Source: Auxenochlorella pyrenoidosa (taxonomy: Eukaryota > Chlorophyta > Trebouxiophyceae > Chlorellales > Chlorellaceae). From it: DNA of 64,000 nucleotides. The stretch is taken from positions 35,209 to 99,208 of the forward strand of contig KQ481937.1 of assembly GCA_001430745.1 (NCBI GenBank), read 5' to 3'. The first letter of the stretch is position 1, and each line of letters begins with the position of its first letter. Below the pieces are notes generated by a model, which was given only the letters and a program-made list of their open reading frames with translations, was not told the origin of the DNA and made no database searches. A program made the position numbers and the translations under genes. Shown here piece after piece: positions 11,259 through 33,100 of this stretch.

Positions 11259-12069
11259 GTCCATTTGCCAGTACAAAGGGGAGGCCAGGTGCAGCCAGGT
11301 GCAACACAGGAGGCCGGCTGAGCAGCTGTGCGGCCACGGGTGGGGGGCAGGGGGCACAAGGCTGCAACCAATTTGCAACGGGCGGTGTAGCTGCGGCTGC
11401 CGAGGAAGAGGGACGGGAGCCATTGGGGGCAAGGGCAGTATGGTGGGATGGGCAGGGAGAGAGGAACGATCGGAGACGCGCCCGGCCCAGGCGCGCACGC
11501 GTGCTGCAGCAGCGGCACATGGCGGGCCCCCAGGGGCGGGGCGCCCTGCCGGGCGGGCTCGGCAAACCTGGCTGAGAAAAGCAGGAAAATGCAGCGGCAA
11601 CGTTGGAACGAACAGACTTGTGTAGGGCATGGTGATGGGAGAGGGCGGGTGAGGGAGGGGAGGGGCCTTGGGGAGGGCGGCAGCCTCTGCGGGTGAGACC
11701 AGAGCTTGCGCTTCGCGGGAGGGGGCCGGCGGGGGGTGGGTGACTGGCAGGGTGGGCTTTTCGCGATCAGCATTCAATACGGGTCAAAGAATACCAAGCA
11801 GGGGAGGCCCGCAGAGGCTGGGGAGGGGTGGCTGGGCCCAAGGCGCCACAAAAGGGCAAGGTGCATACAGGCGCTCGCCTGCCGGCGGCCACGTATGGCG
11901 CATAGCCGGCACTGCTGCAAGAGCCGGCGGTGGGCAGCGAGGGCGAGGACAGCAGACAGGGAAAGAGGGCGGGGTGTTGTACAGGCGGGGTCAGCGGGCC
12001 GTCGTGCGCGCATGCTGCAGCATGCGCGCAAGCAGTCAGCGTCATTCGTTGCTATGCCAGAGAGCCGCT

Positions 12070-15000
12070 CTAGCGTCCGTCGCGGCTGCCGCTCTGCTGC
12101 GCAGGCGGCTGCCCGGGCGCCGCCGCCGCTGCCGCTGCTGCTGCGACGCTGCTGGCATGCTGCTGCACATCAAAGTCAAGCCCCACCGGCAGGGCGCCGC
12201 TGCTGAAGGGGCTCACAAGCGCAGCAGCGGGGGGGCGGGACGCGCTCCTGACGCCTCCCGTGGCCTCGCCGCCCTGGGCCGGGCCGCTCTCTGCGGCCGG
12301 CGCCTGCTCGGCGAAGGGCGACGGCGCCTTGGCGGGCGCGGCGGACGTGCCCACTGGCATTGGCAGGGCGGCGCTGGCGGCAAAGGGGGAGGCCTGCACC
12401 GGCGGCGGCGGCGGGTGCGACAAGCTGGCCGCGGCTTCTCGGCTGGACCGCACAGCCACGGCCGACGGCGGCTGTGCAGGGCGCTGCTGCCGCTGCGCAG
12501 ACGTGTCGGGCACCGTCTCAGAGCGCTGCAGGACAAGGGGGCGTGCAGGGAGCACAGCCTTGGTCAGCAGGCAGGCGTCTGTGGCAAACACTGCAGGCGT
12601 GCAACCTTCATTACGCCCTAGAAAAGCTGCAGAATGAGGCGCGCAGGCCGCAGCGCGAGGTGCTTTTCCAGCGCCATTAAATGTGCTGCAACGAACCGGC
12701 TGCAGCCGCGCTCCTGCCCTGCATGGCCCTTGCGCCGCCCTGCCGGCCCTGCCCATCTGTGCATGCCATGCCAGTCCAGAGGGGGGGCTGCCCAACCCAT
12801 AGACCGACAGACGTGGGCGCCGTCACCAGTCCAGGGCCCCTCAGCGGGTGCGCGCTGCTCGCCCGTACANNNNNNNNNNNNNNNNNNNNNNNNNNNNNNN
12901 NNNNNNNNNNNNNNNNNNNNNNNNNNNNNNNNNNNNNNNNNNNNNNNNNNNNNNNNNNNNNNNNNNNNNNNNNNNNNNNNNNNNNNNNNNNNNNNNNNNN
13001 NNNNNNNNNNNNNNNNNNNNNNNNNNNNNNNNNNNNNNNNNNNNNNNNNNNNNNNNNNNNNNNNNNNNNNNNNNNNNNNNNNNNNNNNNNNNNNNNNNNN
13101 NNNNNNNNNNNNNNNNNNNNNNNNNNNNNNNNNNNNNNNNNNNNNNNNNNNNNNNNNNNNNNNNNNNNNNNNNNNNNNNNNNNNNNNNNNNNNNNNNNNN
13201 NNNNNNNNNNNNNNNNNNNNNNNNNNNNNNNNNNNNNNNNNNNNNNNNNNNNNNNNNNNNNNNNNNNNNNNNNNNNNNNNNNNNNNNNNNNNNNNNNNNN
13301 NNNNNNNNNNNNNNNNNNNNNNNNNNNNNNNNNNNNNNNNNNNNNNNNNNNNNNNNNNNNNNNNNNNNNNNNNNNNNNNNNNNNNNNNNNNNNNNNNNNN
13401 NNNNNNNNNNNNNNNNNNNNNNNNNNNNNNNNNNNNNNNNNNNNNNNNNNNNNNNNNNNNNNNNNNNNNNNNNNNNNNNNNNNNNNNNNNNNNNNNNNNN
13501 NNNNNNNNNNNNNNNNNNNNNNNCTCGGTTTCCTTGCCTTGGTTTGAACTGTGCTAATGCGCTGCGCATCAAGAGGCACACACGTGCCGACGCTGCTGCA
13601 CAACTTCTTGGCCAGCGTGACCGCCTCCTGGTTGGACATGACGTCCCACAGCCCGTCGCTGGCCATGACCAGCACCTCGTCGCTGGGGTGCCGCGCAATG
13701 ATGGTGACCTGCGGGGGGGGCGGGGGGCGGGCGCGGCGGGGAGGGCGCGGTGGGAAGCGGGCCGGCCGGGAGCAGCAGCGCGGGCGGCTGCAGCGAGGGC
13801 GGGGCTGCCATTCCGGGCTTCGCCACGCAATGGCGCCCCGCAAGGTGATGCAGCACCCGACAGAGAGCAGGACACATTGCAGCCGCAGAACCGGCTGGGC
13901 GTGCTCACAAGCTGTGGCAGCACATGCCCGCCCGCCCACCAGCCGCCCACGACAGCGCTCACCTCGGGCTCCGCGATGACGTATGGGCGCAGCGAGTGGT
14001 CGCCAATGGCCCGCGACACAGCCAGCAGGCCCATCACGCGCACGCCGTTCCAGAACAGGATCTGCCCGCCCGCCGCCTCCACGCGCGCCTGCAGGGGGGG
14101 AGGCCAAAGCAGGAGGAGAGGAGTGGGCGGGCAGGACAGCACGGGCTGGTGCGCCGCCATGCAGGCGCCCCTCACGCCCACCACCAGCGTCGCTGTGCTG
14201 CTGCTTGTGCTCAGCGCGGCATCCGCACAGTGGCGCTGCGGCGACCAGTGCGTTATCACATCAGCAGCGAAACAGGCTGCGCCTCGCTCGCGGTCCATGT
14301 GGCCTGGGTACCAGGGAGCTCGCTGCAGAGGTGCCAACCGGCCCACGACTCATGCAGCCCCGCAACCGCCTGGCTCCCGGCCTGCCCTGTTGCGCTGGCG
14401 CCCCCAGCAGAGGACCCGGCCTTGGCACGATCCAGCACCCCGGCCTCCCTGGCGCCCTCTGATCCCAAAGCCCGGCAGCCCCGCCTGGGCGCGCGCCTTA
14501 TTCCCCTCCCCCCACCCCCCACCCCACCCCACCCCCGCGCGCACCGTCTCGTCCTCCCGCGCCGCCTTGTGGTCGTCTGTGAGCGGCAGCGCGCCGCCGG
14601 AGCGGCACAGCACCGCGCGCGAGTCGCCGCAGTTGGCCACGTAGATCATGCGGGAGCCCACCAGCGCGACCACCGCGGTGGTGCCCACCAGCGCCAGGTG
14701 CTCGTACCCGCCCATGTTGCCAAACTCCTCGTCTGCAGGTGGTGGGGGGGCAGGAGGGGGGGCCAGGTCAGAGGGAGGGGGAGGTCGGGGAGGGAACTGG
14801 TGCTGAGGTGCGCTAGGTGCACTGCCTACACATGCAGCCACCTAGTTTATTTCCCAGCTGCCCTGCCAGCAGGCCTGGGCTCACTGCACACCACGATTGC
14901 GACGCCCCACGCTGCCGGCACGCACCTGTAATGTGGAAGGCTTTTGTAAGGGCCGCTTCTATTGTCTCAGCAGTACAGGACACGCCCTGGACGCTGTTGG

Positions 15001-30100: not shown

Positions 30101-33100
30101 GGCACGAGCCCGCCCTTTTGCTGGTGCCACACGGCGAGCCAAGCACCACGTCCTCATGCCGCTCTTCCAAGCTGTGGTTGCGCTGCGCTGTCACTGCCAA
30201 CGCCCCTGGTGCTGCCCCTGACTGCATGCCCTCGAAGCGCTCCACCATGCTGCTCACGTGGCCCAGCTGTGTCGGCCCCCCTGACAGCCTTGTGCTGCTC
30301 CTGCTGCTGCTACCAGCCGCGCTGCCAGCTGCTTCCTTGGCCTCTTGCGCAGGCGCTGCCTTAATGAGCTCGCTGCCGGCACATGCATCTGACATTGCGG
30401 CAGCAGGTGCGCATGCGCGGCATGCCCCCGCTGGGCTGCAGGCCCTGACGGATGCACCTTCCAAGCCACTGGCCCTGGCAGAAACGGCATCTCGCACTGG
30501 GCTTGCCGCTCCAGCCAGCTTTGCGGACAAGACAGCTGACAGAGTGGCTGCTGCCTGGGCGGCAGCGGCATCATTCAGAGGCGGGGGCGCGCCATCCTGG
30601 GATGCTGAGCCTTTGGTCGCCGCTGCCTCCTTTGCCGTGGCTGCCTGCTGCCACAGCTCTGGCCGGCCAACGACGCTTGCCGGCTCCAGGCTGCTTTTGA
30701 CTGGCCGCCGCTGGCAGAGGCCACAGCATGAGACCAGCAGGCCTCGCAGGCTTGCCAGTGTGCTGAGTGCCCTTGTGATGGTGCCTGTACGGCACAAAGA
30801 CCGTGCACCTGGTGCTCAGAATACAGGGCATGTCTGAGCATTCAGGATGGCATGTGGGGATACACAGCTGCCAGCTCCCCAACTTCCAACCTCCCCAACC
30901 TGGACAGCACCTCCAGTGGTCGTGCGAGTGACCGTGGCATAAGACTGCTCAAATGCCGCCAGGGTGATGGACAGAAAAAGCGTTAGGATGATCCACTTGC
31001 CCACTGTCACCCAGAACACAAAGAATAGCACAGAGGGCCAGCCTGCAGCAACCGAGGGCACAGGGGAGTGGCTGGCCTTGCCGCTCTCCTCATTTGCACG
31101 GGGGCATGGTGCGCTGTTGGTCCCGGCCCTGGCCCGAGCTGCCCACCTGCAGCCGCCTGCACCTTGAACATGATGTCCGGCCAATTCTCGAGGGTGAGAA
31201 CCTGGAATACGAGACTGCATGCATTGTGCAGGGTTGGGGGTGCAAAGGGACCGAGGGATATGCCGCAGGCAATCATGGATTGGCCCCAGAGCACCTTGTT
31301 CTGCCCTGCTGCTGCAGCTGGCCACCGCCAGCCTCCCTTGCCACGCAAGCATGCAGCCATCTCACATGAAGCTGTTCCACAGGCCCAGGAAGCTGGGCAG
31401 CGGTGGGTCAAACTCCAGGGACTGCCGGCCAAACACCTGGAGGCCGATGAGCGCAAAGACAAAGATGAAGAGGACCTGCACCAGGGAAGCAGAAGCAGGG
31501 GTGGTTCTTCCTCAGCCCCCAAGGCTCCTTATCCTGGCACTGCCCTCTCATCAGCTCTGACTTGTTGCACAGTACTGCGCCAGCAGATGCTCCATCCCTG
31601 AGCCTGGGCTGCGCCCTGCCCTCCCACCATCAGCAACGCCACTGCGAGGAACTGCCCCATGCTGCCCATCATCACTTCCGAGATGACGCGCAGGCTGTCC
31701 AGGTAGCGAAAGATCTGCCGCAGCAGGGGACGGCGGGGCAGGGGCTAGGGCACTGCCTGCGCATTGCAGAGCTTGCAAGGCGCGGCAAGCCTGGGCGTCC
31801 CTGCGCCAGCTCACCTTGAGCACGCGCAGCACGCGAAAGGAGCGCAGGATGCGCAGGGTGCGGAACGAGCGCAGCGCATTGCCATTGGCGCCCAGCTGCA
31901 GCAGGGGTGACAGAAATGCGCGGGCGTGAACAGTGGGCTGCATGACAGGCAGGCACAGCATGTCCAGGGGTAGGCCTCTGCAGGCCGGGGCAGGGAAATG
32001 GCAGGCTGAGTAAAGGGGGTCGAGCAGCTGGGGGGCCACGCACCGTCAGAGCCATCTCTAGCAGCCCCAGCGCGACCACAAGCAGGTCAAAGGCATTGAA
32101 GGCGTCCGAGAAGTAGCCCCACACGCCGAGGCCCAGCAGCTTGAGGGCCACCTCGGCGACAAACAGCCAGGTCAGCGCCGTGGAGGCGCAGTCCAGGCCG
32201 CGCGAATAGCCGGCGCTCATGCCTGCAGCAGGGGCCAGAGGGGCAGGGTGCTGCAGCGCCAGGTGCAACTCACCGAAGCAAACAGGTCCACCAGCGAGAG
32301 CGCAACCACGACGCCGTCAAACACGTTCATGCCGTCCTCGCAGAAGCCGGCGGCGCCGTAGCCCAGCAGCTTCAGGCAGCACTCTGCAAGGAAGACGTAG
32401 GTGAACGCCTTGCTGGCGGCATCCAGCCGGCCCCTCTTGGTGTCAGACATACCTGCGCAGGAAAAGCGAGCATCAAGGCATGTCGCCCTGTCGGTCTGGC
32501 ACAGGCTGGGACTGACGTGCCCTCCACTAGAGCACTGGCAGGCCAAGCTACCGAGAGAAGCCCCACAACCAGCAGATTCCAGGGCTGTGCATGCCAGTGA
32601 AGCAGCTGGACAAGAGTCTCTCCCCACCTGCTGTGGTCATGGCCAGAAGTACAGTGTTTCCAATGATGAGCAGCATGAAGAGCCACGTGAAAGCTGGGTG
32701 GTCAACCACCTGCAAACAAGACCAGCGTGTCGAGCCATCTTGCGGAAAGCACACAGGAGACTCTTGCCAAACGGGACTGCAGTAGCAGCTGGCTCGAATG
32801 CCAGCTTGCCACTAGTTCACGCGCCCTTCTCCCAGGAAGCTCACCTGCCTGACCCGCCACCGGAACTCAAACCAGTAGTACCCCAGCTTCCCCCTGACGC
32901 CACTGGGCGGGCCCTCTACCAGCAGTGCAGGGAGGCTGCTGCTGCTGCCCGCTGTGCCTGCCAGCAACATCGGGCTGACGGCCCCCGCCTGCAGAACAGA
33001 GGGGAAGAGGTCTCTGAGAGAAGCACCGTTGTCGCCAGCATGCAGATATGGCCAAAGCAAGCAGTGGTAGCCAGCTCGTCAGTTTGACCCATGACGACCT

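Follow-up and report, generated by a model that had tools for sequence, protein, structure and literature searches.

Mutually exclusive homologous exons have already been proven in a green alga and in animal Cav channels, whereas the pair described here, in a channel gene of the green alga Auxenochlorella pyrenoidosa, appears to be new for an algal channel. The pair lies in a stretch of 64,000 nucleotides (contig KQ481937.1, positions 35,209 to 99,208), called the window below, on contig 1 of an assembly of 51.6 Mb in 65 contigs. It consists of two adjacent exons, A and B, each specifying a version of the same voltage-sensor segment in domain II of a four-domain voltage-gated cation channel. 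The nearest algal case is cyn23 of Volvox carteri, whose exons 4 and 5 are 106 nt each, differ in 13 residues and are used exclusively, both forms having been detected by reverse transcription polymerase chain reaction (RT-PCR) (PMC4378016). The two cases share the green algal host and two homologous exons of equal length, mutually exclusive in cyn23 and probably so here, and they differ in that cyn23 encodes a cyclophilin, not a channel. In view of the RT-PCR result, a preliminary description of the window goes too far in treating such a case as unknown from green algae. For ion channels, a mostly superficial survey of the literature on green algae, Chlorella and the channels of unicellular algae, with subscription titles largely outside its scope, gave no algal exclusive-exon case, and the accessible parts of PMC4378016, PMC12702839 and PMC7534427 mention none either.

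Two animal systems are also close. Exons 21 and 22 of mammalian CaV1.2 (CACNA1C) are again an adjacent pair of equal length in a four-domain channel, through which a part of the sensor including S2 is swapped; they cover S2 of domain III and part of the S1-S2 linker (PMC5748662, PMC5059693). The algal pair is found in domain II instead of domain III, covers S2 to S3 instead of S2, and has exons of 179 nt instead of 60 nt, separated by 51 nt as against 147 nt in CaV1.2 (human coordinates, PMC5748662); its origin is presumably separate from that of the animal pair. Exons 4a and 4b of vertebrate OGDH, on the other hand, may resemble the algal pair in the manner of exclusion proposed for it, namely by branch points that fall below a steric limit: in OGDH the branch points lie 25-41 nt from the donor and enforce exclusion (PMC7969005). 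Those of OGDH have been mapped, whereas the alga offers candidate adenosines, within a gap that as a whole measures merely 40-51 nt in this genome and its relatives.

We now turn to the layout of the locus, given in the order of transcription on the minus strand. A constitutive exon containing S1 of domain II (32628..32709, 82 nt, leaving in phase 1; gene model and frame check) is followed by an intron of 175 nt (32453..32627), exon A (32274..32452, 179 nt), a gap of 51 nt with GT and AG at its ends (32223..32273, from the splice-site scan), exon B (32044..32222, 179 nt), an intron of 148 nt (31896..32043) and a constitutive exon containing S4 (31815..31895, 81 nt, phase 0 to 0; model and frame check). 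Exons A and B, defined by homology, alignment and the tree discussed below, are two versions of one segment that comprises the S1-S2 loop, S2, the S2-S3 linker and S3 of domain II; both are of the GT-AG type, entering in phase 1 and leaving in phase 0. The coordinates, the equal lengths, the splice dinucleotides, the phases and the flanking S1 and S4 exons agree to the base with the preliminary description, and its account of the reading frames is reproduced as well: S1 joined to A and then S4, or to B and then S4, is open in both cases, the joining of A to B breaks the frame at the TGA that opens B, and skipping both exons shifts the frame. When the gap is retained (S1+A+gap+B), the same TGA at the start of B is reached. 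We read the locus as one in which splicing is mutually exclusive, with crowding as the probable cause and the frame as a second safeguard, a reading to which we give a probability of roughly 0.88 on the strength of the sequence. The exclusion proposed earlier is supported by the reading frames of this genome; independent support comes from the presence of the same pair in three other lineages, from conservation specific to A and to B, and from the short gap.

Openness alone is weak evidence, because 51 of 105 intron frames of this GC-rich gene are open; homology and conservation, rather than open frames, carry the weight. The identity between A and B, earlier counted by eye as about 27 residues, is exactly 27 of 59, and the ungapped BLOSUM62 score of 118 compares with a mean of -48 (s.d. 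16, maximum 30) over 100000 shuffles of B. The pair has three of the features by which exclusive exons are recognized (PMC3228551): similar length, a shared splice pattern and frame, and homology (0 of 100000 shuffles reach the score). In a scan of the gene for duplicated exons, A-B is by far the strongest match (4e-13), the next best being about 2e-5; the weaker matches were judged by eye to reflect the homology among the four domain repeats, coding sequence of low complexity or chance similarity. The splice sites of A (acceptor 7.55, donor 7.58) and of B (acceptor 10.55, donor 8.07) score within the range of the other sites of the gene. Codon usage gives its strongest signal in the expected frame of both exons, 0.72 bits per codon for A and 0.82 for B, where the codon table, drawn from the isoform B model, includes B and excludes A; the introns have a mean of -0.02 and a maximum of 0.47 bits per codon. 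The G+C content at third positions is 0.86 in A and 0.88 in B, against 0.77 gene-wide.

The question that follows is "does the same pair occur in related algae?" A search with domain II returned 86 proteins, including those of Micractinium conductrix (P0001), Chlorella sorokiniana (P0002), Micractinium tetrahymenae (P0003) and Parachlorella kessleri (P0004), as well as P0009; the query protein kept 35 extra residues from an in-frame intron of 105 nt (exon 30), far from the regions searched. Seven of the 86 were compared, five of them in the tree (P0002, P0003, P0004, P0005, P0009), with P0006 used in the sequence comparison only. In P0001 a segment of A type is followed by one of B type inside a single predicted protein, P0003 begins at the methionine of B, and P0002, P0004 and P0009 have a single B-like segment each. 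A second search, with the A and B peptides placed end to end, returned nine proteins (P0087-P0095). In three of these (P0087, P0088, P0089) one uninterrupted reading frame spans A, a short gap and B, and the letters of P0089 equal those of P0001 over the parts that P0001 retains. P0090 and P0091 are the A and B frames of this genome itself; P0092-P0094 start at the methionine of B and are for that reason uninformative on A, while P0095 is a more distant channel fragment that was kept out of the tree. The A/B pair is accordingly found in three further lineages, one of which is M. conductrix and another of which groups with C. sorokiniana. The B exon nearest to that of this genome is the one of M. 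tetrahymenae (52/59). When viral contigs were searched with P0089, four stretches fit a pattern and none was confirmed as a relative.

The tree was computed from 16 exon-length segments over 59 columns, with P0095 and P0001 left out (P0089 carries the A and B letters of the latter) and with a bootstrap that was incompletely settled. What it establishes is the A clade alone: the four A exons form one group (99/99) apart from every B-type row, on a stem of 1.03 changes per site, and the nine B-type rows group weakly (31/78). Trees that force the A and B of one lineage together are rejected in all four lineages (approximately unbiased test, p 2e-5 to 2e-4). Together, the A clade and the rejected pairings indicate that the duplication predates the split of the sampled lineages. 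The mean identity is 0.65 among the A exons, 0.63 among the B exons of the same four lineages and 0.45 between A and B; the 95% interval for the first minus the second is -0.07 to 0.12. As the A exons are as alike as the B exons, selection has kept A as strongly as B. Eight letters (D3, R6, F16, A34, M41, S52, V54, S59) are fixed in the four A exons and unseen in the nine B-type rows, with V54 and S59 recurring in outgroup rows. The B exon of P0088 groups with C. sorokiniana and P0093 (87/85, unstarred), so that Chlorella proper probably has the pair as well, even though B alone appears in the C. sorokiniana model as published.

Both exons of this genome keep, as the preliminary description had it, Phe20, Glu23 and Lys27 of S2 and Asp45 of S3 (exon numbering), which we take to be voltage-sensor residues; among the relatives, the A exon of P0087 is an exception, with Leu at the position of Phe20. 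The differences between A and B fall in the S1-S2 loop, in S2 (AECC in A, AEVA in B), in the linker (AAGF and VWGY, respectively) and at the end of S3. The S4 charges would be common to both isoforms because S4 sits in a constant exon. A natural guess is that the isoforms gate differently.

The spacing of the two exons suggests how the choice could be made. The gap is 51 nt in this genome and 46, 40 and 40 nt in P0089, P0087 and P0088, where it is derived from the letters of the read-through proteins assuming that B starts two bases before its ATG. It is shorter than any of the 41 other introns examined, which are 94-215 nt (35 in this gene) and 143-265 nt (six in a neighbouring gene with RRM domains). 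The gap of this genome contains adenosines at +4, +10, +22 and +25 from the donor of A, plus one at +50 within the AG, so any candidate branch adenosine at least 12 nt from the AG lies at +25 or less, unless the branch point is in exon A. The four shortest other introns, by comparison, allow a candidate at 69-78 nt from the donor, and the steric limit between donor and branch point in animal introns is about 50 nt (PMC7969005). Should the branch point of B lie inside exon A, choosing B would use up A just as well. Counts of 5-letter words over the 35 introns of the gene give no clear branch-point consensus. U12-type introns were set aside, as no listed donor fits the U12 consensus. In a simple duplex test for docking and selector sites, 82, 42 and 35 of 200 shuffles scored as low as the three intron pairs; with the complementarity of the introns in the range of shuffles, a mechanism through RNA structure is also set aside.

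Combining these observations, we propose the following course of events. The exon that covers the S1-S2 loop to S3 of domain II would have been duplicated in tandem before the sampled Chlorella and Micractinium lineages split; A would then have diverged fast, as its long stem branch suggests, with both copies kept. In the transcript, S1 would be joined to one of the two exons, A or B, and that exon to S4; the two resulting full-length channels would be alike except in S2-S3 of domain II. Exclusion would operate at two levels. The donor of A and the acceptor of B, 40-51 nt apart, would be too close to be paired by the U1 and U2 small nuclear ribonucleoproteins, a physical block by crowding being what the spacing makes most likely. 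In this genome any transcript with both exons would, in addition, be out of frame and stop at the start of B. Both isoforms are presumably made, and very probably the cell builds two channel types from one gene.

Several results weigh against this proposal. In each of the three relatives that proved to have both exons (P0087, P0088, P0089) the gap can be read through in frame, so a protein retaining the gap and containing both segments is possible there, and P0001 of M. conductrix is annotated with both segments in one protein, joining A to B through a shortened A with letters that imply an intron of about 60 nt. A search for A alone among long proteins gave no match in 49 candidates, to which we attach little weight because the same search missed P0001, which holds A. 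The limit of 50 nt is an animal value, and the minimal intron size in this genome is judged from 41 introns. The synonymous codons of A and B agree in 17 of 26 cases where 11.6 are expected (p 0.02), a small result that speaks slightly against a very old duplication. Some of these results would suit a composite exon, or a facultatively retained intron, in which A, the gap and B are read together and domain II gains an extra S2-S3 hairpin; with two membrane passes added, the orientation of S4 would stay normal, and an animal CaV1.2 transcript with both exclusive exons 21 and 22 does exist (PMC5059693). That CaV1.2 form carries no calcium, however (PMC5059693), and in this genome retention of the gap or splicing of A to B terminates at the TGA. 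The three in-frame gaps may stem from the design of the search, since a query of A plus B favours open reading frames that read through an in-frame gap. In addition, the gap letters vary among lineages save at the two splice-site ends, and Pro, Ser, Cys and Leu abound among them, as expected of a translated pyrimidine tract. All three read-throughs have V-S after A and A-D or A-G before the methionine of B, which is how GTGAG-like and GCAG| sites read in that frame. We consider a composite exon improbable, and the A-B join of P0001 is probably an artefact of prediction.

It might also be supposed that B alone is used and that A is a relic left unspliced in an intron. The protein models of C. 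sorokiniana and M. tetrahymenae hold B only, the acceptor of B scores above that of A, and B is closer than A to two of the three outgroup rows, P0004 (Parachlorella) and P0009. An unused copy would have decayed, however, while the codon usage of A is that of coding sequence, its splice sites are intact, and with its eight fixed letters it matches B in conservation across the four lineages; we regard the relic as a slightly poorer prospect than the composite exon. The codon agreement of A and B could, for its part, hint at a recent origin or at gene conversion, as would follow if each lineage had duplicated the exon recently and independently, though it may reflect only the stronger codon bias of these two exons. 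Against such duplications stand the A clade and the rejection of same-lineage pairing, and the A and B frames recur on 21 and 19 contigs of the database, which speaks against a local error in the assembly; we hold recent duplication or an artefact here to be very unlikely indeed. What remains preferred is exclusive splicing of an old pair, and it would follow that the published models are probably wrong at A/B in M. conductrix (where a single protein holds both segments, disturbed at about residues 1034-1148 of P0001) and in M. tetrahymenae (P0003 starts inside B, at its residue 1), while the C. sorokiniana model, with B only, may be incomplete.

The gene that contains the pair was modelled by hand along GT-AG junctions that leave the reading frame open. 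It runs on the minus strand from 36739 to at least 25535, where the model stops, the C-terminal exons below that coordinate being outside it. The 37 exons (A and B both counted) reach S6 of domain IV, and the product of 2048 residues to the end of that domain is stop-free whichever of A and B it includes. Each half of the product has two stretches that Pfam assigns to Ion_trans, four as in a four-domain channel, and the A/B region matches best the second of the four repeats in the animal Cav channels 7mix, 9ayg and 8eog, which bears out the earlier placement in domain II. The label of a Cav channel stands only in part: the four domains are there, while a filter of four acidic residues (EEEE or EEDD) is not. 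As aligned by eye from the model, domains II, III and IV have Glu, Asp and Asp, and domain I (FQATTLTDVF, at 33779-33621, at the junction of exons 8 and 9) is without an acidic residue, giving approximately T/E/D/D overall, near the T/E/N/D of a four-domain channel of Chlamydomonas (PMC5824947). Because of this non-acidic position, we file the gene as a four-domain cation channel whose calcium selectivity is not assured. Read by eye, the domain I filters of P0001 (FQVTTQTDW) and P0004 (FQVITMSSW) likewise lack an acidic residue.

Elsewhere in the gene, the linker between domains II and III (30784-29690) is one low-complexity exon of 1095 nt with RSPTPF/SRSPTPF-like repeats. Immediately upstream of the channel gene, and likewise on the minus strand (about 40400-37860), is the RRM gene, which matches the first part of P0001 with its three RRM stretches. 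The M. conductrix record that fuses the two genes is probably an annotation error, and it suggests that the order of the RRM and channel genes is conserved. Away from these genes, the 2 kb block at 12001-14000 has a G+C content of 0.48, the other 2 kb blocks of the window having 0.61-0.71.

A search of the whole genome for Ion_trans, made exon by exon and hence a lower bound, gave six matches, all of them exons of this gene. It may thus be the only readily detected four-domain channel gene of the genome, and splicing may be a main route by which the channel is diversified. The pair would offer a natural A/B experiment on the role of S2-S3 in gating and, with two exons and a gap of 51 nt, a compact model of a hard-wired splicing choice. 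Animal excitability genes are known to swap sensor modules by means of exclusive exons; conservation of such a case in unicellular algae of the Chlorella type would, if true, mean that the plant lineage came to this solution on its own. We lean towards the view that green algae evolved sensor-swapping exclusive exons independently, hard-wired by a gap of 40-51 nt, that A has been neofunctionalised, and that electrical or calcium signalling in these cells may be tuned by splicing.
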